In this document: positions 50 to 30,577 of the stretch, piece by piece
Position numbering within the stretch: the first letter of the stretch is position 1
How the letters are laid out: every line of letters starts with the position of its first letter
Assembly: GCA_001778495.1 (NCBI GenBank)
Contig: MFHE01000010.1
Location: 119,292-153,897, forward strand
Direction: 5' to 3'
DNA: 34,606 nucleotides
Origin: Candidatus Giovannonibacteria bacterium RIFCSPHIGHO2_01_FULL_45_24
GTDB taxonomy: Bacteria > Patescibacteriota > Minisyncoccia > UBA11713 > 2-01-FULL-45-33
Made by a program: the position numbers and the translations under genes
Notes under the pieces: generated by a model
Seen by the model: the letters and a program-made list of their open reading frames with translations, nothing else
The model's database searches: none
What the model was told of the DNA's origin: nothing

Positions 50-1489
50 TTAAGCTAAAATCATTTGTTCCACTTGCTTTTGCGCCGAAATAACTATGCT
101 TTCCGCCTCTTGTCGCAATTCCGTTGCTTTCGCTCGTATTTTTCTAATTTTACCAACCATTTCATTTTGCTTGTCTTTTGACGGATAAATAACTTGCAAA
201 CTTCCAACTTCATCAAGATTGATATTTGCGCGAGCCGCGTATCTTTTTATGCGATCTAATTCCATTTGCCCAAATTTTGAAAGTAAAAATTCTTTTGCAT
301 ATTCTGGATACACATCATCTTTTAATCTAACGGAGGCTAGATTTTGACTTATATTAGCTTCTCTGTCCATATTGTAAACAGATACTTGTCCAATGGTCGC
401 CCCAATCAGTGCAATAAGCAAATCTCCTTTTTCTAATTGTGAACTTTTAAGTTTTTTATTATGGATTTCTTTTTTAATAAAATTTAAGTTATCAAAATCA
501 ATTTCATTGTCGGGGTTAATGTCTCCGCTTCGCAAAAATGGTATTCCGTCATTTTGATTTGTATAAGCATCTCCACCGGACAAAGGCGTTGAACCACTTG
601 TTATTTTTGTTGAAAGATTTTTCAAAGTTTTAACATTATATTTTGTGGTTGAAAAAATCTTGTCTAACATTTTAAAAATAGGACGAAAATATGAAGGGTC
701 AAGTCGGGTCTGAATTTCATCACTCCAAATCTGAAACACTCGCTCTGGGCTTTCTTTTGGAATATCTATACCAAGCTCACCGAAAACAAAATCATCTATT
801 GAGAATAAAACATTTTCAACTTCCGCTTTTTTCCTTTGTCTCTGCTCGTATGCTTTTTGGATTTTCTTGACGACTTCGTTTTGGATAGAAATAGGCGGGA
901 TTGGAATATCAAAATTCTTTATCGTTTCAATGGTGATATTCCCTTGAATCGCGCCGATTTTCTCTCGTTCAATCAACTTTCGGCTCGCTTCACCATTAAG
1001 CCAAGCGGCGACATATTGTTTATTTATTTTGTCGTTGAGACAAAATTTAATCATAAAAGAACCGAACGCAAAACCTTCCACCTCTTTCGGAACGACAATA
1101 ACAATACCTACCGAGCCACTCCTTGAAATAAGTAAATCGTTCTCGTGAACAACTGCCTTGCCTATTTCATCGCTCCGGCTTTCTGGTAAATAAACAATCT
1201 TACTTAAATCAAGTCCGTCGTTTTTCAAGTTTAGGATACGCAAAAGAGGCACGCCGGAATCCACATATTCGTTTGTCGTTGAAATGCCGTAGCGAATATC
1301 AGTAATAAAATCGCCCAATTTTTGCGATTCGTATTTCCCATGTTGTATCGCTTTTTGAAGTTCACGGATGGCCGGTATCCAATACTTCACGTCAAGGCGG
1401 CGACCCGCTATCGCATCCTCACTCCAAGTTGCAAAAACTTGGAGAGGAGTTGAATCGTTTTTACTTTTTGAATTTCTTGTATTCTTCAT
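50..1489 (-). CDS. hsdS: Type I restriction-modification specificity subunit (HsdS), two target-recognition domains
   Basis: ORF 50..1618; the likely start is the internal Met (MKNTRNSKSKND...) at 1489, overlapping the hsdM end. Two repeated TRD-like halves (LGDFITDIRYGISTTNEYVDSGVPLLRILNLK... and VKTLKNLSTKITSGSTP...DGIPFLRSGDI). Confidence 0.88.
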   Translation of the reverse strand: MKNTRNSKSKNDSTPLQVFATWSEDAIAGRRLDVKYWIPAIRELQKAIQHGKYESQKLGDFITDIRYGISTTNEYVDSGVPLLRILNLKNDGLDLSKIVYLPESRSDEIGKAVVHENDLLISRSGSVGIVIVVPKEVEGFAFGSFMIKFCLNDKINKQYVAAWLNGEASRKLIEREKIGAIQGNITIETIKNFDIPIPPISIQNEVVKKIQKAYEQRQRKKAEVENVLFSIDDFVFGELGIDIPKESPERVFQIWSDEIQTRLDPSYFRPIFKMLDKIFSTTKYNVKTLKNLSTKITSGSTPLSGGDAYTNQNDGIPFLRSGDINPDNEIDFDNLNFIKKEIHNKKLKSSQLEKGDLLIALIGATIGQVSVYNMDREANISQNLASVRLKDDVYPEYAKEFLLSKFGQMELDRIKRYAARANINLDEVGSLQVIYPSKDKQNEMVGKIRKIRAKATELRQEAESIVISAQKQVEQMILA

Positions 1490-3248
1490 AAATATCGTTG
1501 AAATCATTTTTGGCGTCTTTCTTACCTGTCGCTTCGTAGCCAATGTGTTCGGCAATCGCCATAAAAATTTTATAGCGTCCCAGCTTTTCCTTGCCACCCT
1601 TTTTACGAACGAATACAAGCGATGATTTCACGCCTGCGCCGAAGTGGGTAAATGCGAATTGCGGCAAACTGACGATTGCCTGTATCTGTGTTTTTTCTAT
1701 TAGAAAATCTCGGACATATTGTAGGGTTGAGTTAGACAAAATGCCGTCCGGCAAAACGATAGCAATTTGGCCAGTTTCCGGCTTTAGAAAATCTATACAC
1801 CGCTCAATAAATAATACTTCGGTCTTCTGATTATCCATCGCTTTGATTTTGCCTTTGGCGTCTTTTTTCTTCCCAAGAGCAAATTTCTCAAGATATGGAT
1901 GCTCGCTTCTTTTTACATTCGCTCCAAACGGCGGATTGGTAACGATAATGTCAAAGCGATTTTTAGCAAAGCCCGAATTTTTGGCCGTCATTTTTTCTAT
2001 ATCGTTGAGCGCGTCGTGGCCGATGACATTCGTATGGCCGTCGTCGTGAATAATCATATTCATTTTGGCTACACGAGCGATGGAATCGTTAATCTCAATA
2101 CCAAAGAGATTGTTTTGGGCAAAATCGTGCCAGTATCGCCATTGTTCTTTTTCTTCGTCCGGATAATATCCCTTTGCTTGGGCGCGGACTTCGTCAAGCG
2201 CGTGAAGTAGGAAGCCGCCCGAACCGCAAGCGGGGTCAAGCACAAGGTCGTCATTTTTTATACCCATCATCTTTACGGCAAAGCTCACAATGTTGCGCGG
2301 CGTAAAGAACTGGCCGCTTTTGCCTTTGAAAAAGTCCTCCATAAAATGTTCAAAGGCAACGCCCTTTGTATCCAAATCTGTTTTATCAAGAGAAATACCT
2401 TGTAAGTGCTCTACCACCGTATAGAGTTCTTCCGGCTCAATCTTCAAATCCTCCTTGAACACTTCGGGGTCAATCTTTTTCGCCTCTTGATAAATTGCGT
2501 TGATGCGTTTATACACACTCTCCGCGCTTTCGTGCGTCTTAATTTGAAAATCGTAGGGATCGCCTGTCTTGCGCCCTCGCTTTTCATCGCGGATTTTTAC
2601 AAAAATAATTTTTGCGAACTCATCAAACGCTGTTGTCGGCGCACGCTTACCGCCAGCCCATAGCGTATCGTGGCATTTTTGAAAGGCGCGTTTGAGGTCG
2701 TCTTGGTCAATCGGCTTCAAATCCCAGTTTGTATCACCTTTCTTGTAGCGGAACTCCTCAATCTTGCCGTAGGAAATCGGAATGTCGGTAATCGTTGCCT
2801 TCTCCGGTTCTTTGTCGTTCCATGCGGCTGTTTCCATCGCGCGGCGAGTGTTACCGGCAACGCAGTTAGCAAACGGGGCGTGAAGAACGCGCGCATTGGC
2901 TATGGCTTGTTTTGTCGCTTGTTCAAATTCAGCGTCAGAAATACCATCCTTCTTACACTCCACCACGATATACGGTTTACGCTTGCCGTCATCTTCATAA
3001 ATAACAATGTCAGCGTATCGTTCGGGCGTGCGGTCTGGCATTTCCACTTCAAGCTCAATGCGCGCAGCCGGATAGTTGTATTTCTCTATCAAGTCAAAAT
3101 AATACTCGGCTCGGACTTTTTCCTCCGGGTCGTTGAGATTTTCTTTGTGGCCGGACGGAAGATACTCAATCTTCGCCCCGTTGTTGTGGAGACGAAAATA
3201 TCCTTTACGCTCTCCCTCTTTCAAGATTTTCTCAAAAGTGTTTGACAT
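1461..3248 (-). CDS. hsdM: Type I R-M methyltransferase subunit (HsdM) with N-terminal HsdR_N/PD-(D/E)XK-like domain
   Basis: SAM motif DPACGSGGF and catalytic NPPF (VTNPPFGAN); N-terminal RYADIVIYEDDGKRKPYIVVECKK resembles an HsdR_N D...ExK motif. Confidence 0.9.
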   Translation of the reverse strand: MSNTFEKILKEGERKGYFRLHNNGAKIEYLPSGHKENLNDPEEKVRAEYYFDLIEKYNYPAARIELEVEMPDRTPERYADIVIYEDDGKRKPYIVVECKKDGISDAEFEQATKQAIANARVLHAPFANCVAGNTRRAMETAAWNDKEPEKATITDIPISYGKIEEFRYKKGDTNWDLKPIDQDDLKRAFQKCHDTLWAGGKRAPTTAFDEFAKIIFVKIRDEKRGRKTGDPYDFQIKTHESAESVYKRINAIYQEAKKIDPEVFKEDLKIEPEELYTVVEHLQGISLDKTDLDTKGVAFEHFMEDFFKGKSGQFFTPRNIVSFAVKMMGIKNDDLVLDPACGSGGFLLHALDEVRAQAKGYYPDEEKEQWRYWHDFAQNNLFGIEINDSIARVAKMNMIIHDDGHTNVIGHDALNDIEKMTAKNSGFAKNRFDIIVTNPPFGANVKRSEHPYLEKFALGKKKDAKGKIKAMDNQKTEVLFIERCIDFLKPETGQIAIVLPDGILSNSTLQYVRDFLIEKTQIQAIVSLPQFAFTHFGAGVKSSLVFVRKKGGKEKLGRYKIFMAIAEHIGYEATGKKDAKNDFNDIYEEYKKFKK

Positions 3249-3527
3249 AGTTATTTCATTAAATCATCAACACTCATATCAAAAACCGAATGTCTTTAAT
3301 TAGCACCCTGAATCTATCAAGGGGTGTCTGATTCTTTTCGTTTGTGATGAATGTTAGATCGGAAGACATGAAATATCCTTCATCTTCGCATAAAATCCTT
3401 AATTTTTGAAGTGTTTTTTGAGCAACCAAAGTTATCAACTTCGGGCTCTCTGGACTCCCTAGCGGGGTTGCGTCATCCCTTACCTTGATAAAGGTCGGCA
3501 TTATTAAGGGCTTAAAGGGAAAATTGT

Positions 3528-4850
3528 ATGGACTTAACAAAGACTTTGACGCCTAATAAGGCGAGGGAAGAGCAGGCAATCACGGCTATCAAATACGCGC
3601 TTTACGCAAGAAAGAGTACGGAATCGGAAGAGCGCCAAGTGCTTTCCATTGATAGCCAAGTTAAAGAGATGCTGCAGCTTGCTGAAAAAGAAAATCTCAA
3701 TATCGTTGAGATTAAACGCGAAAGCCATTCGGCGAAAAATGTCGGGCAACGCCCAATATTCAACGAACTTATTGGCGATATCCGCGCCGGAAAATTCAAC
3801 GGAATACTTTGCTGGGCTCCCGATCGAATAGCAAGAAATGCCGGAGATCTCGGAGCCGTAGTTGATTTGATAGATCAAAAACTGCTTCTTGAGGTCAGAA
3901 CCTATGGACAGAAATTTTCAAACTCTCCCAGCGAAAAATTCCTTCTCATGATTCTTGGATCGCAAGCCAAGCTCGAAAATGATCAGAAAGGGATAAATGT
4001 GAAAAGAGGCTTGCGAGCCAGAGTGGAGATGGGATTATGGCCGACGACCGCGCCTACAGGATATCTCAATGAAAAACGGACCGACAGAAAAGGCCATATT
4101 CTTACAGACCCGGAACGCGCGCCGATTATCAAGAAAATGTTTGAGAAAGTGGCCAACGAAGGATGGAGCGGAAGGAAATTGTATCACTGGCTGAAGTTTG
4201 AGATAAACTTCAAAACCAAAGGCAACAAGAATTTGTCTTTAAGCAATATTTATCTGATACTTCAGAACCATTTTTACTACGGCGTGTTTGAATATCCGCG
4301 AGGCGGCGGGAACTGGTATACCGGAAAACACGAGCCGTTAATCAATAAAGAATTGTTTCTGCAAGTTCAAGACCGGTTAAAAAGAGACCAGCTGCAGCGC
4401 GAGAATAGAGAGTTCGCTTTTACAAAGCTGCTCACATGCGGTCTCTGCGGATCAGGAATTACGGCTTGCGAGAAATTCAAAAAATTGAAAGACGGCACTA
4501 CTAATAAGTATATCTACTACGGCTGTGCGAGAAGCAAAAACAAAAACTGCGATTTTGGGTATACCAGAGAAGAAGAATTGATAAAGCAACTAATGTCTAT
4601 AATAGACGAAATTGACATGAACGAAGTCGGCATAAGGCACAGATTTGAAAAAGAGATTGAGCGATTCAATAAATTCCAGCAAGGGATTCTCAAGATGAAC
4701 GGCGGTAAAGTAAAAGCCAAGGCAATCAATGTGAGAGAATACGCCAAGTATATTCTTCAGGAAGGAAGCATGATTGAGAAAAGAGAGTTGCTTGGATGTC
4801 TGAAAGGTAAAATTGTTCTGCAGAATAAAACTGTAAGATTATTAAAGTAA
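3528..4850 (+). CDS. Large serine recombinase (resolvase N-terminal domain, recombinase domain, zinc ribbon)
   Basis: ALYARKSTESEERQVLSIDSQ catalytic-serine region, DRIARN, and CGLCGSG...YYGCARSKNKNCDF zinc ribbon. Confidence 0.92.
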   Translation: MDLTKTLTPNKAREEQAITAIKYALYARKSTESEERQVLSIDSQVKEMLQLAEKENLNIVEIKRESHSAKNVGQRPIFNELIGDIRAGKFNGILCWAPDRIARNAGDLGAVVDLIDQKLLLEVRTYGQKFSNSPSEKFLLMILGSQAKLENDQKGINVKRGLRARVEMGLWPTTAPTGYLNEKRTDRKGHILTDPERAPIIKKMFEKVANEGWSGRKLYHWLKFEINFKTKGNKNLSLSNIYLILQNHFYYGVFEYPRGGGNWYTGKHEPLINKELFLQVQDRLKRDQLQRENREFAFTKLLTCGLCGSGITACEKFKKLKDGTTNKYIYYGCARSKNKNCDFGYTREEELIKQLMSIIDEIDMNEVGIRHRFEKEIERFNKFQQGILKMNGGKVKAKAINVREYAKYILQEGSMIEKRELLGCLKGKIVLQNKTVRLLK

Positions 4851-5107: not shown

Positions 5108-5194
5108 TTGGCGCGGGGTGAAAGTCCCCCGCCTGCCGGCAGGCAGGCTCGCTCTGCCACCCACCGCCTCCGGCGGGGTCTCGCTGAAAGCGGT
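5108..5194. repeat. Cluster of GC-rich palindromes downstream of the tRNAs
   Basis: ggcgcggggtgaaagtcccccgcc, cctgccggcaggcagg and ccaccgcctccggcggggt occur in tandem; the middle one resembles sequence inside ybeY. Confidence 0.7.
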
Positions 5195-5787: not shown

Positions 5788-6060
5788 TTAATTAGTTAAA
5801 TAATTAGCCATTTGTTTTTTTAAATATTTCCTCCCCGAACCGCTTTTCAAGAATTTTTCGCGGCCGATTGCATCTTCTTTGAGCAAGTATGCTTCGCAAT
5901 AAATTAGTTTCCATTCTCTACCACGGCGAGTAGTTTGGCCGCCTTTGCCGGAATTGTGTTCCAAAAATCTTTTTCTCAAATCAGCCGTGTACCCGATATA
6001 CCATCCTCTGGCGGCTTGGTTTTCGCTGTCGTAGCTCTTGCGAGCCACGAGGCGGCGAAG
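5788..6060 (-). pseudogene. GIY-YIG nuclease-family gene, apparently truncated or altered at the N-terminus
   Basis: GWYIGYTADLRKRFLEHNSGKGGQTTRRGREWKLIYCEAYLLKEDAIGREKFLKSGSGRKYLKKQ is typical of the family. The expected first motif (xVYxLxS) is missing; the region upstream of 6003 is palindromic repeat up to the tRNA-fMet 3' end. Confidence 0.6.
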
Positions 6061-6070
6061 CCGCTTTTCG

Positions 6071-6144
6071 TGGTAGCGGGGGCCGGATTTGAACCGGCGT
6101 CTCAAGGTTATGAGCCTTGCGAGATACCACTTCTCCACCCCGCG
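6071..6144 (-). tRNA. Initiator tRNA-fMet (CAT)
   Basis: CGCGGGGTGGAG...GGCTCATAACC...CCGGTTCAAATCCGG...CCCCGCTACCA; unpaired C1, CCA encoded. Confidence 0.92.
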
Positions 6145-6175
6145 ATGGCAAGTGAGTAAAAGAATAGCAAAAAAA

Positions 6176-6712
6176 TTAAATATATTCAAGCTCGCGGAGC
6201 GCCTTTTCAAAAAGGTTGAGCGCCCGTTCGGCGTCTTCTTTGGGAAGTTGGTAGCCGGCTTCGTGAGCGATGCGGTTTCTGATTTTGTGCGCTTCCCACA
6301 AAGCATCCAGCGAATCTAAATCTGCCGGCTCAATGTTTTTCAGCTTCTCGCCCAAATTCTCCCCGCCGTATCCAGCCATGGCTAAAATTTTCTCAATCAA
6401 AGAATCCGCGGCGATTACGGCCTGCTTCCTGTCATTTTCGTTTTCCGAGCCGCCTTGAACCAGAATTTTTTGCCAAGTTTCCAGATTTACATTGTTCTCC
6501 GGCGAGGCGCTTTGGGGCTCGTCAAAAACATGCATCGCGCGGAAAATCCGATTGGATTTGTAAACGCTGTAAATTATGCCAAAAACCAGCGGGATGGAAA
6601 TATAAACCGCAACCGCCTTAAGCAAAGGAATCGGCTGCGAATAATCATAGTGCAGCAAAAAATCCGCGAGATTGAAAACCAAGTCAAAAACCAAATTTAT
6701 AAAATCAATCAT
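6176..6712 (-). CDS. Membrane-anchored protein with C-terminal HEPN-like helical domain
   Basis: Hydrophobic N-terminal segment (LLKAVAVYISIPLVFGIIYSVYK); C-terminal AADSLIEKILAMAGY...HKIRNRIAHEAGYQLPKEDAERALNLFEKALREL contains an Rx4H motif (RNRIAH). Confidence 0.6.
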   Translation of the reverse strand: MIDFINLVFDLVFNLADFLLHYDYSQPIPLLKAVAVYISIPLVFGIIYSVYKSNRIFRAMHVFDEPQSASPENNVNLETWQKILVQGGSENENDRKQAVIAADSLIEKILAMAGYGGENLGEKLKNIEPADLDSLDALWEAHKIRNRIAHEAGYQLPKEDAERALNLFEKALRELEYI

Positions 6713-15936: not shown

Positions 15937-17952
15937 TTAGCTATTTTTGTCAAATATTTTTGCTTCCGCAACCGCTTCTTCCAGAAGTTCAAAGTAAAGG
16001 TTCAAGCCGATGCGGTAGGCGACGCCCGACTGCGCTTTGCCCAAAATATTCCCGGCGCCGCGGATTTCCAAATCCCTCCTTGCAAGTTCCAGCCCCGCGC
16101 CCAGCCATGAATATCTCTCCAGCGCCTCCAATCTCTCCGCCGCGCGCTCCTTTAATTTTTGCGCCGGATACAAAAAATACGCGAATGCTTCTTTTTCTCC
16201 GCGGCCTATGCGGCCGCGGAGCTGATGCGCCTGCGAAAGCCCGAGTTTTGTGGCATCCTCAACAATCAATGTATTTACGTTGGAAATATCCAGCCCGTTT
16301 TCAATAATTGTCGTTGAAACCAGAATGTCTATCTTTCCGGCGCGGAAGTCGCGCATGGTTTTTACAATCGCGCGCTCGTCCATTCTGCCGTGCAAAATCC
16401 CGATTCTGGCGCGCGTTTTCAAATTTTTAATCTCCTCCAAAAGCCGGGGGATTTTGTGGATACGATTTGCCAGAAAATAAATCTGTCCGCCGCGCGCGAG
16501 CTCAAAATCAACGGCTTCTTTCATTGTTTTCTTGTTTTTCGGCAAAACGTAAGTTTTTATCTCTGTCCGCCCTTCCGGCGGCGTTTCAATTGATGAAATC
16601 CGCTTAAGGCCGGAGAGCGCAATATGCAAAGTTCTCGGGATAGGCGTCGCGGACAAAGTAAGAATATCTGGAGTGACTATATTTTTCCCGCCAGAGGTGG
16701 GTCCGCCTATGGCGGAAAACTTTTCTTTCTGGGCTACGCCGAATTTTTGCTCCTCGTCAATTACCAAAAGCCCCAGATTTTTCCAGCCCGAGGCCGACAA
16801 AATTTTATGAGTCCCGATTACAATATCTATTCTGCCTGATTCAAGTTTTGTTAAAATTTCCTTAATTTTCGCCGGGCTTTCCAGCCTGGTAAGCCGCGCG
16901 GTTTCAACCCCGTATTTTTCCATGCGTTTTTTAAAAACCTCCGAATGCTGGTCAGCTAAAATAGTGGTCGGCGCCATAATCGCGGCCTGCCGGCCATTCA
17001 AAACCGCGCGGAAAGCCGCCACGAGCGCGATTTCCGTTTTCCCAAAACCAACGTCGCCAGTCAGCACTCTGTCCATCGGCTCCTGGCGCGACATATCTGA
17101 AAAAATTTCTTCCAGCGCGCTTTTTTGGCCAGTAGTGTATTCATATGGAAAATCCGCGATGAGCTCCTCCTCCAATTCTCCGTGCTCCAAATAGGGCGCG
17201 CGGTAGGCGGTTTTTCTCTCCGCGAGGGTTTTTAAAAGTTCTTTGGCGTAAGCGACAATATCTTCTTTGGCCTTCTTTTTTGTAATTTGCCACATCGGCG
17301 TGCCAAGCCGGTGAATCTCCGGCTTTTTAAAGCCGAGATACGGCTGGATTCTTTTGACTTCTTTTTTTGGCACAAAAAGCAAGTCAGGTGAATTCGGCCG
17401 GTCATGCGGCGGGGCATATTCAATAACAAAATCGTCATTTTTTTCGCCCCTAAAAATCCCGATTCCATGGTCAATATGGACAATATAGTCGCCGGGACTC
17501 ATAACTCCCCTAGCCCCTCTTACCTTAAGAGTGGAACTTCTTTTTTGCTTCCCCCTTAATGTAAGTGGGATTGAGGGGGTTATATCCAAAATAACATTCC
17601 CCTCAAACTCAATCGCGAAAACTTTGTCCGAATTTATCGGAAAAACGCGCACGACTCCTCCACGCCGGGAAAATTCACCGCGGTTTTCGGCCTCCCAAAC
17701 CTTGACGTACCACAGCTCCGCAATTTTTCTTAAAAACTCCGAGAGCTTAATTCGCTCCCCGACCTCAAAAACCAAAGTGTTTCTTGCCCAAAACGCGCTT
17801 TCACGGCGATTTTTCTCAATCTCTTCAAAATTTTCCGAAAACCAACCCGCCCCCTTTTCCAAAAAGAACGGGGTGACAGCAGCTATTAAAATTTTATTTA
17901 AACTTTTCTTCAGTTTCTGAATCCTATCAAAAATTTGATAAAAAATCAACAA
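15937..17952 (-). CDS. mfd: Compact transcription-repair coupling factor (Mfd-like)
   Basis: RID-like GDYIVHIDHGIGIF, helicase motifs GDVGFGKTEIALVAAF, DEEQKFGV, LSATPIPRTL, QLRGRIGRG. No UvrB-like N-terminus and no C-terminal TRCF domain. Confidence 0.9.
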   Translation of the reverse strand: MLIFYQIFDRIQKLKKSLNKILIAAVTPFFLEKGAGWFSENFEEIEKNRRESAFWARNTLVFEVGERIKLSEFLRKIAELWYVKVWEAENRGEFSRRGGVVRVFPINSDKVFAIEFEGNVILDITPSIPLTLRGKQKRSSTLKVRGARGVMSPGDYIVHIDHGIGIFRGEKNDDFVIEYAPPHDRPNSPDLLFVPKKEVKRIQPYLGFKKPEIHRLGTPMWQITKKKAKEDIVAYAKELLKTLAERKTAYRAPYLEHGELEEELIADFPYEYTTGQKSALEEIFSDMSRQEPMDRVLTGDVGFGKTEIALVAAFRAVLNGRQAAIMAPTTILADQHSEVFKKRMEKYGVETARLTRLESPAKIKEILTKLESGRIDIVIGTHKILSASGWKNLGLLVIDEEQKFGVAQKEKFSAIGGPTSGGKNIVTPDILTLSATPIPRTLHIALSGLKRISSIETPPEGRTEIKTYVLPKNKKTMKEAVDFELARGGQIYFLANRIHKIPRLLEEIKNLKTRARIGILHGRMDERAIVKTMRDFRAGKIDILVSTTIIENGLDISNVNTLIVEDATKLGLSQAHQLRGRIGRGEKEAFAYFLYPAQKLKERAAERLEALERYSWLGAGLELARRDLEIRGAGNILGKAQSGVAYRIGLNLYFELLEEAVAEAKIFDKNS
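16681..16719 (-). repeat. Double-hairpin palindromic element, in frame within mfd (FSAIGGPTSGGKN)
   Basis: Minus: TTTTCCGCCATAGGCGGACCCACCTCTGGCGGGAAAAAT; 33/39 identical to 20207-20245 in hisS. Confidence 0.85.
17501..17583 (-). repeat. 83-bp imperfect palindrome, in frame within mfd
   Basis: ataactcccctagcccctcttaccttaagagtggaa...ttcccccttaatgtaagtgggattgagggggttat; ~35-nt arms, loop about 12 nt; encodes ITPSIPLTLRGKQKRSSTLKVRGARGVMS. Confidence 0.8.
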
Positions 17953-17981
17953 TAAACAATAGAAAGAATGAAGGGCAATGT

Positions 17982-18339
17982 TTATTCTTTCCGCAGCGTG
18001 CCGGCGCTATTCACGCTGAAAATATGAATGTGGCGGCGTAAATCCAAATATTCCAGCGCCTCAAAAAATTCTTGCGGCAAAGGACAATAACCGACCCAAA
18101 CACTCTTTTGCAGAATCTTATAACCGCAGGCAAGAAGCTCCAATCTAAGCCATAAACGCTTTTTTCGTTCGCGCTCTGGAACATCAAAAATCACCAAGCG
18201 CATAACGCCGTCATTCTGAAGCGGCTCCGTTGTTTTCTTGAACCATCGTCCGCCTAATTAACCCTTGCTTCTGCAATCTAGAAAGTATCGCCCAAAATGT
18301 TGGTTTAGAAAATCTATGTGAAGAATCCAATCCCAACAT
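17982..18339 (-). pseudogene. PaaX/Cas2-like CPR-type regulator gene disrupted by a frameshift
   Basis: Upstream frame: MLGLDSSHRFSKPTFWAILSRLQKQGLIRRTMVQENNGAASE* (ends 18211). Downstream frame: WFKKTTEPLQNDGVMRLVIFDVPERERKKRLWLRLELLACGYKILQKSVWVGYCPLPQEF... Confidence 0.65.
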
Positions 18340-18376
18340 GCCGCGCCACAATCTCGCCTCAAGTAATAATCAACAA

Positions 18377-18405
18377 TTGACTAATTTGCAATATATTGCT
18401 ATGAA
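18377..18405 (+). promoter_or_regulatory. Sigma-70-like promoter
   Basis: TTGACT (18377-18382), 17-nt spacer, TATGAA (18400-18405), upstream of the small ORF. Confidence 0.5.
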
Positions 18406-18441
18406 CTCCGTAGAGAACAACGGAAATGGGAGGTGGAGTTT

Positions 18442-18624
18442 ATGTATAAAGTCGTCCTGCTAAGGAAAAACGGGCAAAGAGAATTTTTTATTTCGGCAGG
18501 GAAGCCGACCGTCAAGCACAACAGAAATCACACGGAAATCCGCGGGAGAAGCCTGGCAAGGAGACCCTTCATCCTGATAGTAAGCCAGCACGATTCCGCC
18601 AAGATAGAGTTCGTAGTTAACTAG
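18442..18624 (+). CDS. Small hypothetical protein
   Basis: MYKVVLLRKNGQREFFISAGKPTVKHNRNHTEIRGRSLARRPFILIVSQHDSAKIEFVVN with SD gggaggtgg. Confidence 0.55.
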   Translation: MYKVVLLRKNGQREFFISAGKPTVKHNRNHTEIRGRSLARRPFILIVSQHDSAKIEFVVN

Positions 18625-19178
18625 TTAAATTGGCTCATAGCGCTTTCTAACGAGCCGCTAGCCATTGCTTCAAGTGCGTCCGATACGCGCTTGTTTATTT
18701 TCTTAAAAACTTCCAATTCCGATGGTTTGAATTTTCCGACTATGAATTTCATCACCTCCTTTTGCGCCGGCTTTCTTTTGGGCGAAACGCCGATGCGAAT
18801 CCTCACGAAATTTTTTGTCTTGAGCGCGCGCATAACCGATTCCACTCCTTTGTGCCCGCCGGAACTTTTGCCGTAAGAAATTTTGAACCTGCCCAATGGC
18901 AAGTCCAAATCATCGTGAATCACAATCAGTTCTCTCATTTCCCTCTTCGGACGAATCAGTTTGGCCGCCGCGCTTCCCGATTTATTCATGAAAGTTTCCG
19001 GCAAAGCGATTGCCGTCTGCCCACTTTTTGAAACAAGCGAGCTGGATTTTTTGTCGTACTTAAACTCAGGGTAATCATTCTTCCCGGCAAAGCGCAACGC
19101 TGCCATCTTGCCGGCGTTATGCCTTGTGTTTTCGTATTCCGCTCCCGGGTTGCCTAAGCCCAAAATTAAGCGTATCAT
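18621..19178 (-). CDS. pth: Peptidyl-tRNA hydrolase
   Basis: LGLGNPGAEYENTRHNAG, PETFMNKSG, VIHDDLDLPLG. Confidence 0.95.
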   Translation of the reverse strand: MIRLILGLGNPGAEYENTRHNAGKMAALRFAGKNDYPEFKYDKKSSSLVSKSGQTAIALPETFMNKSGSAAAKLIRPKREMRELIVIHDDLDLPLGRFKISYGKSSGGHKGVESVMRALKTKNFVRIRIGVSPKRKPAQKEVMKFIVGKFKPSELEVFKKINKRVSDALEAMASGSLESAMSQFN

Positions 19179-19189
19179 ATGTGAATATT

Positions 19190-19714
19190 ATGGAAGAACG
19201 AAAAGAAAATGCAATTTGGGAATTTATAAAAGTGATTGTCGTCTCTCTGGCCATAGTTTTGCCAGTACGCATATATATTGCCCAGCCGTTCATAGTTTCC
19301 GGAGCTTCCATGGAGCCGAATTTTTATAACGGGGAATATCTGATAATAGACGAACTTACATACGAATTCCGCCCGCCCGAGCGCGGAGAGGTCGTGGTTT
19401 TCAGGTATCCTTTAAACCCGTCGGAATTTTTTATAAAAAGAATCGTCGGCCTGCCGAAAGAAACAGTGGAAGTAAAAAGCGGCAAAATTTCCATAAACGG
19501 CGTCGCCTTTGAAGAACCGTATATTGAAAATTCGCCTGAAACGCTCCCGGACATTAAAATAATGCTTGATGAGGGCGAATATTTCGTCTTGGGTGACAAT
19601 CGTCCCCACAGCTCCGATTCCAGATTCTGGGGGGCGCTACCGAAAGAGAAAATAATGGGGCGCGCGTTTCTGCGCCTTTGGCCGATAGCCAAAGCAGGAT
19701 TTACAACCGACTAA
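19190..19714 (+). CDS. lepB: Signal peptidase I
   Basis: QPFIVSGASMEPNFYNGEYLIIDELTYEF, VVVFRYPLNPSEFFIKRIVGLPKE, YFVLGDNRPHSSDSRFWG; ATG at 19190. Confidence 0.95.
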   Translation: MEERKENAIWEFIKVIVVSLAIVLPVRIYIAQPFIVSGASMEPNFYNGEYLIIDELTYEFRPPERGEVVVFRYPLNPSEFFIKRIVGLPKETVEVKSGKISINGVAFEEPYIENSPETLPDIKIMLDEGEYFVLGDNRPHSSDSRFWGALPKEKIMGRAFLRLWPIAKAGFTTD

Positions 19715-19720
19715 ATTAAC

Positions 19721-21100
19721 ATGCCAAAAAAATCAAGAAAGGAAATTGTCCGCTCGCCGAAGGGCATGCACGATATTCTCCATGGAGACATCAGGTACAT
19801 GGAGCGGATTTTGGAAAAGGCCGGCGAGATCGCCGAGTTTTACGGATTTTTGCCGATTAAAACCCCGCACCTGGAGCAAGCAGAGCTTTTTTTGAGGCCA
19901 TTGGGGGAAACCAGCGACGTCGTGGAGAAAGAAATGTATACTCTCCGCACCAAAGGCGGCGACCTCCTGGCGCTCCGACCGGAGGGAACAGCCGGAATCG
20001 CGCGCGCGTATTTTGAAAATGGGATGGGTTCGTGGCCACAGCCCGTGAAGCTTTACTACGAAGGCGCTTTTTTCAGGCATGAAAAGCCGCAACGCGGACG
20101 CTTCCGCGAATTCCGCCAGTTCGGTGTGGAAATTTTGGGTAGCGACGACGCCGTTTTAGACGCCCTCACTATTAAAATCGCCTATCTTATTCTTCGCGAA
20201 ATCGGATTCTCCGCCAAAGGCGGACCAGCCTCCGGCTGGAAAAATGACCTTCTGGTTCACATAAACAGCATAGGAGACAAAAACTGCCGCCCCGCTTACA
20301 AAAAAGAGCTTACAAATTACTACCGCAAAAAATTCAATTATCTCTGCAAAGACTGCAAGCGCCGGCTCAAAGACAACCCCCTGCGGCTTTTGGACTGCAA
20401 AGAAAAAGAATGCGCGGAGCTCAAAGCCCAGGCTCCGCAGATGATTGAGCGCCTTTGCGAAACGTGCAAAACGCATTTTAAATCCGTTTTGGAATTTCTG
20501 GACGAAGGGCAAATCCCTTACTTTTTGGATAACTTTCTGGTCAGGGGGTTTGATTATTACGGGCGGACGGTATTTGAAATTTTTCTGGAAGAAGAAAAAA
20601 AACAAGATGGGCCGGAAGCGGTTGCCGGGGCGCCAGCGACGGTTCTAGGGGCAGGCGGAAGATATGACGACCTTGCCTCAATTTTGGGAGAAAGGCCCTT
20701 GCCCGCGGTCGGGATGAGCTTGGGCATGGAAAGGATTATCCACGAAATGAAGCGGCTGGAAATCGCCCCGACGCCCCACCCGGAAGCAAAAGTGTTTTTA
20801 ATACACATCGGCCCCGCGGCAAAGAAACGGAGCTTCAACCTTATGGAAGAGCTCCGCGCGGCGGGGGTCAACGCGGGAGAATCAATTTCGCGCGACAATT
20901 TAAAAACCCAGCTGAATATCGCCTCTAAAATCGGCGCCAAACTCGCCCTGATTTTGGGCCAGAAAGAAGCCATGGACGGAAGCATTATCATGCGCGACAT
21001 GGAAGAGGGCTTCCAAGAATCGGTCCTCCAGACTAAGCTGATTGAAAAAATAAAAGCCAGCCTTGCCGAGTCTAGGCGGGCCAGCTTAAAGAAAAAATAA
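19721..21100 (+). CDS. hisS: Histidyl-tRNA synthetase
   Basis: KGMHDIL, LRPEGTAGIARAYFE, RHEKPQRGRFREFRQFGVEILGSDD, GAGGRYDDL. Confidence 0.95.
   Translation: MPKKSRKEIVRSPKGMHDILHGDIRYMERILEKAGEIAEFYGFLPIKTPHLEQAELFLRPLGETSDVVEKEMYTLRTKGGDLLALRPEGTAGIARAYFENGMGSWPQPVKLYYEGAFFRHEKPQRGRFREFRQFGVEILGSDDAVLDALTIKIAYLILREIGFSAKGGPASGWKNDLLVHINSIGDKNCRPAYKKELTNYYRKKFNYLCKDCKRRLKDNPLRLLDCKEKECAELKAQAPQMIERLCETCKTHFKSVLEFLDEGQIPYFLDNFLVRGFDYYGRTVFEIFLEEEKKQDGPEAVAGAPATVLGAGGRYDDLASILGERPLPAVGMSLGMERIIHEMKRLEIAPTPHPEAKVFLIHIGPAAKKRSFNLMEELRAAGVNAGESISRDNLKTQLNIASKIGAKLALILGQKEAMDGSIIMRDMEEGFQESVLQTKLIEKIKASLAESRRASLKKK
20207..20245 (+). repeat. Double-hairpin palindromic element, in frame within hisS (FSAKGGPASGWKN)
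   Basis: TTCTCCGCCAAAGGCGGACCAGCCTCCGGCTGGAAAAAT: two perfect 6-bp hairpins, 33/39 identical to the mfd copy. Confidence 0.85.
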
Positions 21101-30543: not shown

Positions 30544-30577
30544 TAGCTCCGCCGAAGGCGGATGGTATCGGGGAGCT
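30544..30577. repeat. Nested palindromic repeat
   Basis: ccgtagcTCCGCCgaaGGCGGAtggtatcgg: central TCCGCC/GGCGGA hairpin flanked by outer cccCG/CGggg. Confidence 0.6.

Follow-up and report, generated by a model that had tools for sequence, protein, structure and literature searches.

Introduction

Repeated palindromic DNA that is read in frame within conserved genes has been described in Rickettsia and Wolbachia, where these elements (Rickettsia and Wolbachia palindromic elements, RPEs and WPEs) are tolerated, mostly at exposed positions of the encoded proteins (PMC2229807, PMC3767692). The length of RPEs is 105-146 bp (PMC2229807), i.e., in the range of about 100-150 bp. Other short palindromes are known as well: repetitive extragenic palindromic sequences (REPs) carry GTAG or CGTC tags (PMC3733652), the GC clusters of yeast mitochondrial DNA (VAR1/rps3) are short GC-rich palindromes of an AT-rich genome that are found in a ribosomal protein gene too (PMC4464245), and palindromic amphipathic repeat coding elements (PARCEL) are coding palindromes thought to have spread horizontally among distant microbes (PMC2996958). 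We studied a double-hairpin DNA element that lies in frame inside mfd and hisS in a window of 34,606 nucleotides (the whole stretch that was analyzed, on contig MFHE01000010.1 of Candidatus Giovannonibacteria bacterium RIFCSPHIGHO2_01_FULL_45_24). An earlier note on this DNA, made from the sequence alone, had likened the element to RPEs.

We found dispersed copies of this element, exactly inserted at sites that are empty in relatives, with a strong bias in reading phase and with covariation of the hairpins, in organisms of unrelated phyla. Very probably, we are dealing with a small mobile DNA element of the non-autonomous kind that consists of two 15-nt hairpins in tandem (in some cases of a single one) and inserts at TTY^RAA.

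Results

The mfd and hisS copies

The identity of both host genes was upheld by Pfam domains and homologues in the Protein Data Bank (PDB). The mfd gene (TRCF/Mfd; a 671-aa open reading frame, ORF; 15937..17952, minus strand) has the CarD_TRCF_RID, DEAD and Helicase_C domains and matches PDB 6ac6 and other Mfd entries, and hisS (histidyl-tRNA synthetase, 459 aa; 19721..21100, plus strand) has the tRNA-synt_His domain and matches PDB 1qe0. Comparison of the segments TTTTCCGCCATAGGCGGACCCACCTCTGGCGGGAAAAAT of mfd (minus strand, 16719-16681) and TTCTCCGCCAAAGGCGGACCAGCCTCCGGCTGGAAAAAT of hisS (plus strand, 20207-20245) confirmed that they are identical at 33/39 positions and are in equal codon phase. 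The mfd element, TCCGCC-ATA-GGCGGA followed by CCCACC-TCT-GGCGGG (16687..16716, minus strand), is read SAIGGPTSGG, and its flanks on the same strand are TTT (16719-16717) and AAAAAT (16686-16681). The hisS element, TCCGCC-AAA-GGCGGA followed by CCAGCC-TCC-GGCTGG (20210..20239, plus strand), is read SAKGGPASGW between TTC (20207-20209) and AAAAAT (20240-20245).

These are two copies of one dispersed element. Its canonical form is TTY/TCCGCC-NNN-GGCGGA-TCCGCC-NNN-GGCGGA/RAA, near-palindromic as a whole, in which two 15-nt hairpins give a net insert of 30 nt; single-hairpin copies add 15 nt, and both lengths fall short of that of RPEs. The preferred insertion site is Phe^Lys (TTY^AAR), in TTT^AAA-like targets. 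When no flank was included in the search pattern, the flanks were still T-rich on the 5' side and A-rich on the 3' side (position -3 is T in 89%), and the same check of the canonical sequence found neither a GTAG nor a CGTC tag. Among 283 sequences with TTY and hairpin 1, 253 then carry hairpin 2 with at least 5/6 pairs, and a methyltransferase has a single 15-nt unit, read FSAxGGK, as do several further ORFs. The search pattern proposed in the earlier note fits the mfd and hisS copies only; most often, both hairpins of a copy are TCCGCC...GGCGGA. The copy in recG of the source genome (G000, 531 kb; G and L numbers label sampled genomes and loci, respectively) is close to this consensus: TTC/TCCGCCAAAGGCGGA/TCCGCCTATGGCGGG/AAAAAA, read VVF/SAKGGSAYGG/KKLGL (contig C5, locus L003). 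The recurrence exceeds chance: the sequence TCCGCCNNNGGCGGA occurs 9 times in this genome, and its reversed control 0 times.

Empty, filled and scarred sites

Using codon alignments of hisS, recG and mfd from 11 genomes of the order, we detected presence/absence differences at each site. The hisS site is empty in 7 of the 11 genomes (F-KN or F-EN, and L-KN in G005), it contains the 30-nt insert in G000 and G004, in G001 additional codons are nested in this insert, and in G008 it is reduced to a 6-nt remnant, TTT TCC GCC AAA AAT, read FSA-KN. At the recG site, G000 is the only filled genome of the order. The junctions in hisS and recG are clean (TTY^AAR), exactly 30 nt are added, and no target site duplication was found at them in these alignments. 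The main mfd site (16687..16716) is filled in G000 and G004 and empty (F-KK) in the nine other genomes, whereas a second mfd site, located further upstream, is filled in G002 (NFSAKGGPASGWKN, with FSAKGGPASGWKN) and in G003 (with FSAQGARLPDGQGLALGWKK) and has a scar, SASGW, in G000 and G001. In the window, the codon alignment places this probable scar of an older element at 16783..16797 (minus strand; TCGGCCTCGGGCTGG before AAAAAT). The scars in hisS of G008 and in mfd of G000 and G001, together with a nested palindrome in hisS of G001 and mfd of G003, show turnover of the element.

This nested palindrome, CCCGCCTGCCGGACGGGCAGG, is read ARLPDGQ in frame (L051, hisS of G001; L070, mfd of G003); it was also found in L013, L058, L067 and L187, and it occurs alone outside the two genomes with nesting. 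Thus, there is probably at least one further family of protein-coding palindromes. It should be noted that G000 and G004 have in common not only the mfd insert but also the downstream sequence ATAGTCACTCCAGA (L063; window 16681-16720), and that the site is empty in their sister genomes, G001 and G008. Since the tail is absent in the sister genomes, recombination between lineages is suggested, and the segment is a likely case of gene-segment transfer between genera, judging by the alignment.

The empty sites bear directly on the possibility that the loops are ancestral in these proteins and were lost in relatives. A shared site in a few genera agrees with such a loss, and nothing further does; a near-identical peptide is found at unrelated sites of many unrelated proteins, it is absent in solved homologues from other bacteria, and most sites in the order are empty. 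An ancestral, universally conserved loop is excluded by the empty sites of HisS, Mfd and RecG within one order; for these three genes the ancestral reading is refuted, and its probability overall is negligible. The statement that the peptides sit where homologues continue directly holds for these empty sites and for solved HisS and Mfd structures as well. In all six hosts that were checked against solved homologues (HisS, Mfd, AtpD, DnaK, L21 and GlnA) the inserts are at alignment gaps; the DnaK insert aligns at DK^GTGNRT of the E. coli protein. Going by the folds of HisS and Mfd, the position in these two proteins would be a turn that links a helix to a strand.

Reading phase

The frequencies of the three reading phases were calculated for two sets of double hairpins. 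The first set is from a cross-phylum scan for exact copies, with one genome per species (at least 118 loci). Among the matches listed, 86 of 122 doubles are inside ORFs, and the ratio of phases 0:1:2, read SAxGGSAxGG, Arg-rich and PPxADPPxA, respectively, is 74:4:8. The second set was chosen with no flank in the pattern; most of it is from class genomes, and the order contributed a small number of stretches. It has 68 of 82 doubles in ORFs, with phases 62:1:5. In the two sets together, 136 of 154 ORF doubles are in phase 0, 13 in phase 2 and 5 in phase 1, the first set again being limited to the matches listed. In the most copy-rich genome, G215, we detected 9 SAxGGSAxGG, 2 PPxADPPxA and 0 Arg-rich readings, where a few copies are counted twice in overlapping loci.

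As a control, we counted the phases in which the target TTYRAA occurs within long ORFs at these loci. These targets are distributed 1041:182:1000 over phases 0:1:2, and the observed phase bias differs from this distribution with p of about 6e-24, although the copies are not all independent. TTYRAA is equally common in phases 0 and 2; therefore, target choice fails to explain the bias. As rough rates per target, phase 0 (136/1041) is at least as frequent as insertion outside ORFs (50/518), whereas phase 2 (13/1000) is about ten times rarer. Insertions into genes would survive when they are read F-SAxGGSAxGG-K, because this peptide is a Gly/Ser/Ala linker that would be tolerated in surface turns, and insertions in the Pro-rich (PPxADPPxA) and Arg-rich phases would be purged. 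The phase pattern is the one that would be expected from survivorship of a tolerated linker.

Hairpin covariation

We found 125 perfect tandem double hairpins in 0.86 Mb of collected loci and 0 in each of five Markov shuffles; the loci were picked for holding the element, and this comparison is a check of structure, not of abundance. We compared 247 distinct copies with the consensus. Two substitutions were found in 40 of them, and in 30 of these 40 the two substitutions are a compensated pair, compared to about 1 in 70 expected by chance in our estimate. Eight copies with four substitutions have two compensated pairs each. The sum of compensated pairs is 60 for two local hairpins and 2 for a single long palindrome (counts that are inflated by common ancestry of variants), which indicates that the two-hairpin form is what is kept; one long hairpin is disfavored. 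The two tandem hairpins claimed in the earlier note are therefore favored by the family, although the mfd copy alone can fold as one long hairpin too. The compensatory change described for hairpin 2 stands in part: the A-T to C-G pair is real and is one case of the general family pattern, but the adjacent pair in mfd is an A.C mismatch (CCCACC/GGCGGG), and thus only the neighboring change is compensatory.

Conserved, covarying hairpins may also be indicative of a selected host function, e.g., a regulatory RNA hairpin, a translational pause, a protein linker, a DNA uptake signal or a terminator, and some copies, in DnaJ and a methyltransferase, are common to different genera. Nevertheless, orthologues of the same genes lack the element, copies decay to scars, and the hosts are functionally unrelated; by sequence recognition, they presumably include AtpA, a GyrA/ParC-type subunit, AspS, AlaS, MiaA, transketolase, Pgk, RecG, an EF-G-like GTPase, Dus and, in Ignavibacteria, the type IX secretion system (T9SS) motif YPNPF/NP. 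An uptake signal would have to be far more numerous in each genome, and a T run before and an A run after the hairpin are the reverse of an intrinsic terminator. We consider a host function highly improbable; selfish DNA of nearly neutral effect is a better description of the copies than functional parts of Mfd or HisS.

Distribution across genomes and phyla

An absence of further copies is excluded, as the element recurs elsewhere in the genome, in the order and class, and also in other phyla. In a sample of 392 genomes from the class, doubles with at most two substitutions were detected in 148 (0-36 per genome); the reversed control gave zero in all listed genomes but one. Copy number varies strongly within one family (f33): 0, 1, 20 and 25. 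Exact copies span about ten phylum-level groups by record title, among the matches listed: Patescibacteria (many lineages), Omnitrophota, Ignavibacteria/Bacteroidetes, Zixibacteria, Elusimicrobia, Lentisphaerae/Kiritimatiellaeota, Margulisiibacteriota, Auribacterota and Planctomycetota. The element had been characterized as RPE-like, in an apparent genome of the Candidate Phyla Radiation (CPR) and in essential genes; CPR housekeeping genes are indeed among the hosts, but the element is found beyond CPR genomes, across several phyla.

The same gene position is filled in different organisms in recG (L201, L206, L322), dus (L314, L332, L341), aspS (L209, L319, L339) and atpA (L231, L376), which suggests that these positions are hot spots of insertion or that alleles already filled were transferred. 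A subfamily with the reversed loop pattern (TNC first, GNA second) is present in G215 (L409-L422), the genome with the top copy number (36) and with no Y1_Tnp match.

Candidate mobilizers

A trans-acting enzyme, or a recombination route that depends on hairpins or single-stranded DNA, would copy or move the folded strand. One candidate is a REP-associated tyrosine transposase (RAYT; TnpA_REP, Y1_Tnp), by which the element would be mobilized as a sequence of the REP/REPIN type. The hairpins are short, repeated and non-autonomous, and Y1_Tnp genes are present in 11/11 genomes of the order, with 2-8 in each. Copy number does not follow these genes, however: no Y1_Tnp match was found in G215 or in G389, G059, G052 and G184 (24, 16, 15 and 14 copies, respectively), and within the order G009 has 15 doubles with 2 Y1 genes, compared to 1 double with 6 Y1 genes in G007. 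A CCGCC hairpin is within about 1.5 kb of 2 of 30 Y1 loci, roughly the background rate, and most copies are intragenic and the canonical sequence is tagless. Adjacency and the copy-rich genomes lacking Y1 led us to reject this mobilizer, and the RAYT explanation is very unlikely.

GIY-YIG genes are beside the element at two loci (L233, L347), most genomes of the class have more than one of them, and in the window the domain is found in a 172-aa ORF (5788-6306, minus strand). A GIY-YIG endonuclease was rejected as the mobilizer, since the hairpin is next to the gene in 0 of 30 GIY-YIG loci, and there is no match in G166 (13 copies) or G013 (7 copies). No recurring neighbor gene was found next to copies beyond T9SS-type, sensor-kinase-like and housekeeping genes, and no autonomous copy was found in the loci of the cross-phylum scan.

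These negative results, by which neither Y1 nor GIY-YIG is required, are consistent with a spread in which foreign DNA is taken up and joined by illegitimate recombination over short patches, with no dedicated transposase; folded single strands, T-rich at one end and A-rich at the other, would anneal at TTTAAA sites. Such spread fits the presence of almost the same element in phyla that are unrelated, in many cases in metagenome-assembled genomes from groundwater or sediment, as well as the transfer suggested by the mfd segment of G000 and G004. On its own, it fails to explain one conserved sequence, the fixed two-hairpin form, and bursts to 36 copies per genome, and we regard it as rather unlikely, at a level well above that of the RAYT explanation.

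Other features of the window

A single hairpin, TCCGCC-GAA-GGCGGA (30548..30562, plus strand), is outside called genes and is a candidate single-unit copy. The palindrome CCTGCCGGCAGGCAGG at 5132-5147 adjoins a tRNA cluster; it is also upstream of a GIY-YIG gene in L392 and looks like another dispersed repeat of the lineage. ORFs in 50-4850, which we take by sequence recognition to be of Type I restriction-modification type (S-like and M-like), are beside a presumed resolvase/recombinase-like ORF.

Discussion

Several observations weigh against a mobile element of this kind. No mobilizing enzyme was found near copies, and the evidence for transposition is comparative. Several genomes have one copy only, and some inserts have flanks other than TTY/RAA, e.g., K/PARGGSASGG/K. 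At the main mfd site, the residues just downstream differ too (KNIVTPD in the filled form and KKxNPALD in the empty form); thus, either more than a clean gain of 30 nt took place here, or replacement followed the insertion. The ORF calls behind the phase counts were mechanical, and some intergenic and off-phase assignments are uncertain.

A mobile double hairpin is still the reading that we favor. A broader version, put forward tentatively and with less than even confidence, is that a cross-phylum palindrome, pre-adapted to coding DNA and moved by an undescribed hairpin-dependent mechanism, is a common natural source of new protein loops. Under this version, a length in multiples of 15, the Phe^Lys target and the Gly/Ser/Ala linker would make insertion into an essential gene nearly neutral.

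Protein-coding palindromes have been described so far in Rickettsia, Wolbachia and one archaeon. In that archaeon, palindromic repeats reportedly have coding potential, and the likeness is that they are coding palindromes. The 30-bp version occurs in many phyla and in hundreds of copies, has sites that are empty in close relatives and shows a measurable bias of frame. It is therefore a system for testing by what route selfish DNA comes into essential proteins, which agent mobilizes the element and how often new surface loops arise. Caution is also due with conserved proteins of the CPR, many of which have short inserts that are probably not ancestral and probably without function.

We found no relevant earlier report of the core sequence or the peptide in open-licence PubMed Central (PMC) papers, and the element represents a novel type, of small size, among the mobile palindromes that code for protein. 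Like REPs and REPINs with RAYT, it consists of short (20-40 bp) non-autonomous hairpins in paired copies; unlike them, it is mostly intragenic, has no tag, and is neither linked to a Y1 transposase nor in need of one. Yeast GC clusters are organellar, have another sequence, and are named for one protein gene besides rRNA genes. PARCELs form 25-residue tandem arrays in ORFs with no assigned function, whereas here we see single inserts in housekeeping genes, and miniature inverted-repeat transposable elements (MITEs) differ in having the target site duplication that is missing here. The likeness to RPEs and WPEs, supported by the empty sites in HisS, Mfd and RecG and by the dispersed copies, is that of a repeated, dispersed palindrome, in frame in conserved genes and absent from homologues. 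In contrast to the elements of Rickettsia and Wolbachia, the present one is a 15- or 30-bp tandem of hairpins, is found in Patescibacteria, Omnitrophota, Ignavibacteria and others, is read almost exclusively in one phase, and shows presence/absence within one order. Being much shorter, cross-phylum and strictly phased, it is set apart by the RPE descriptions as a separate family.

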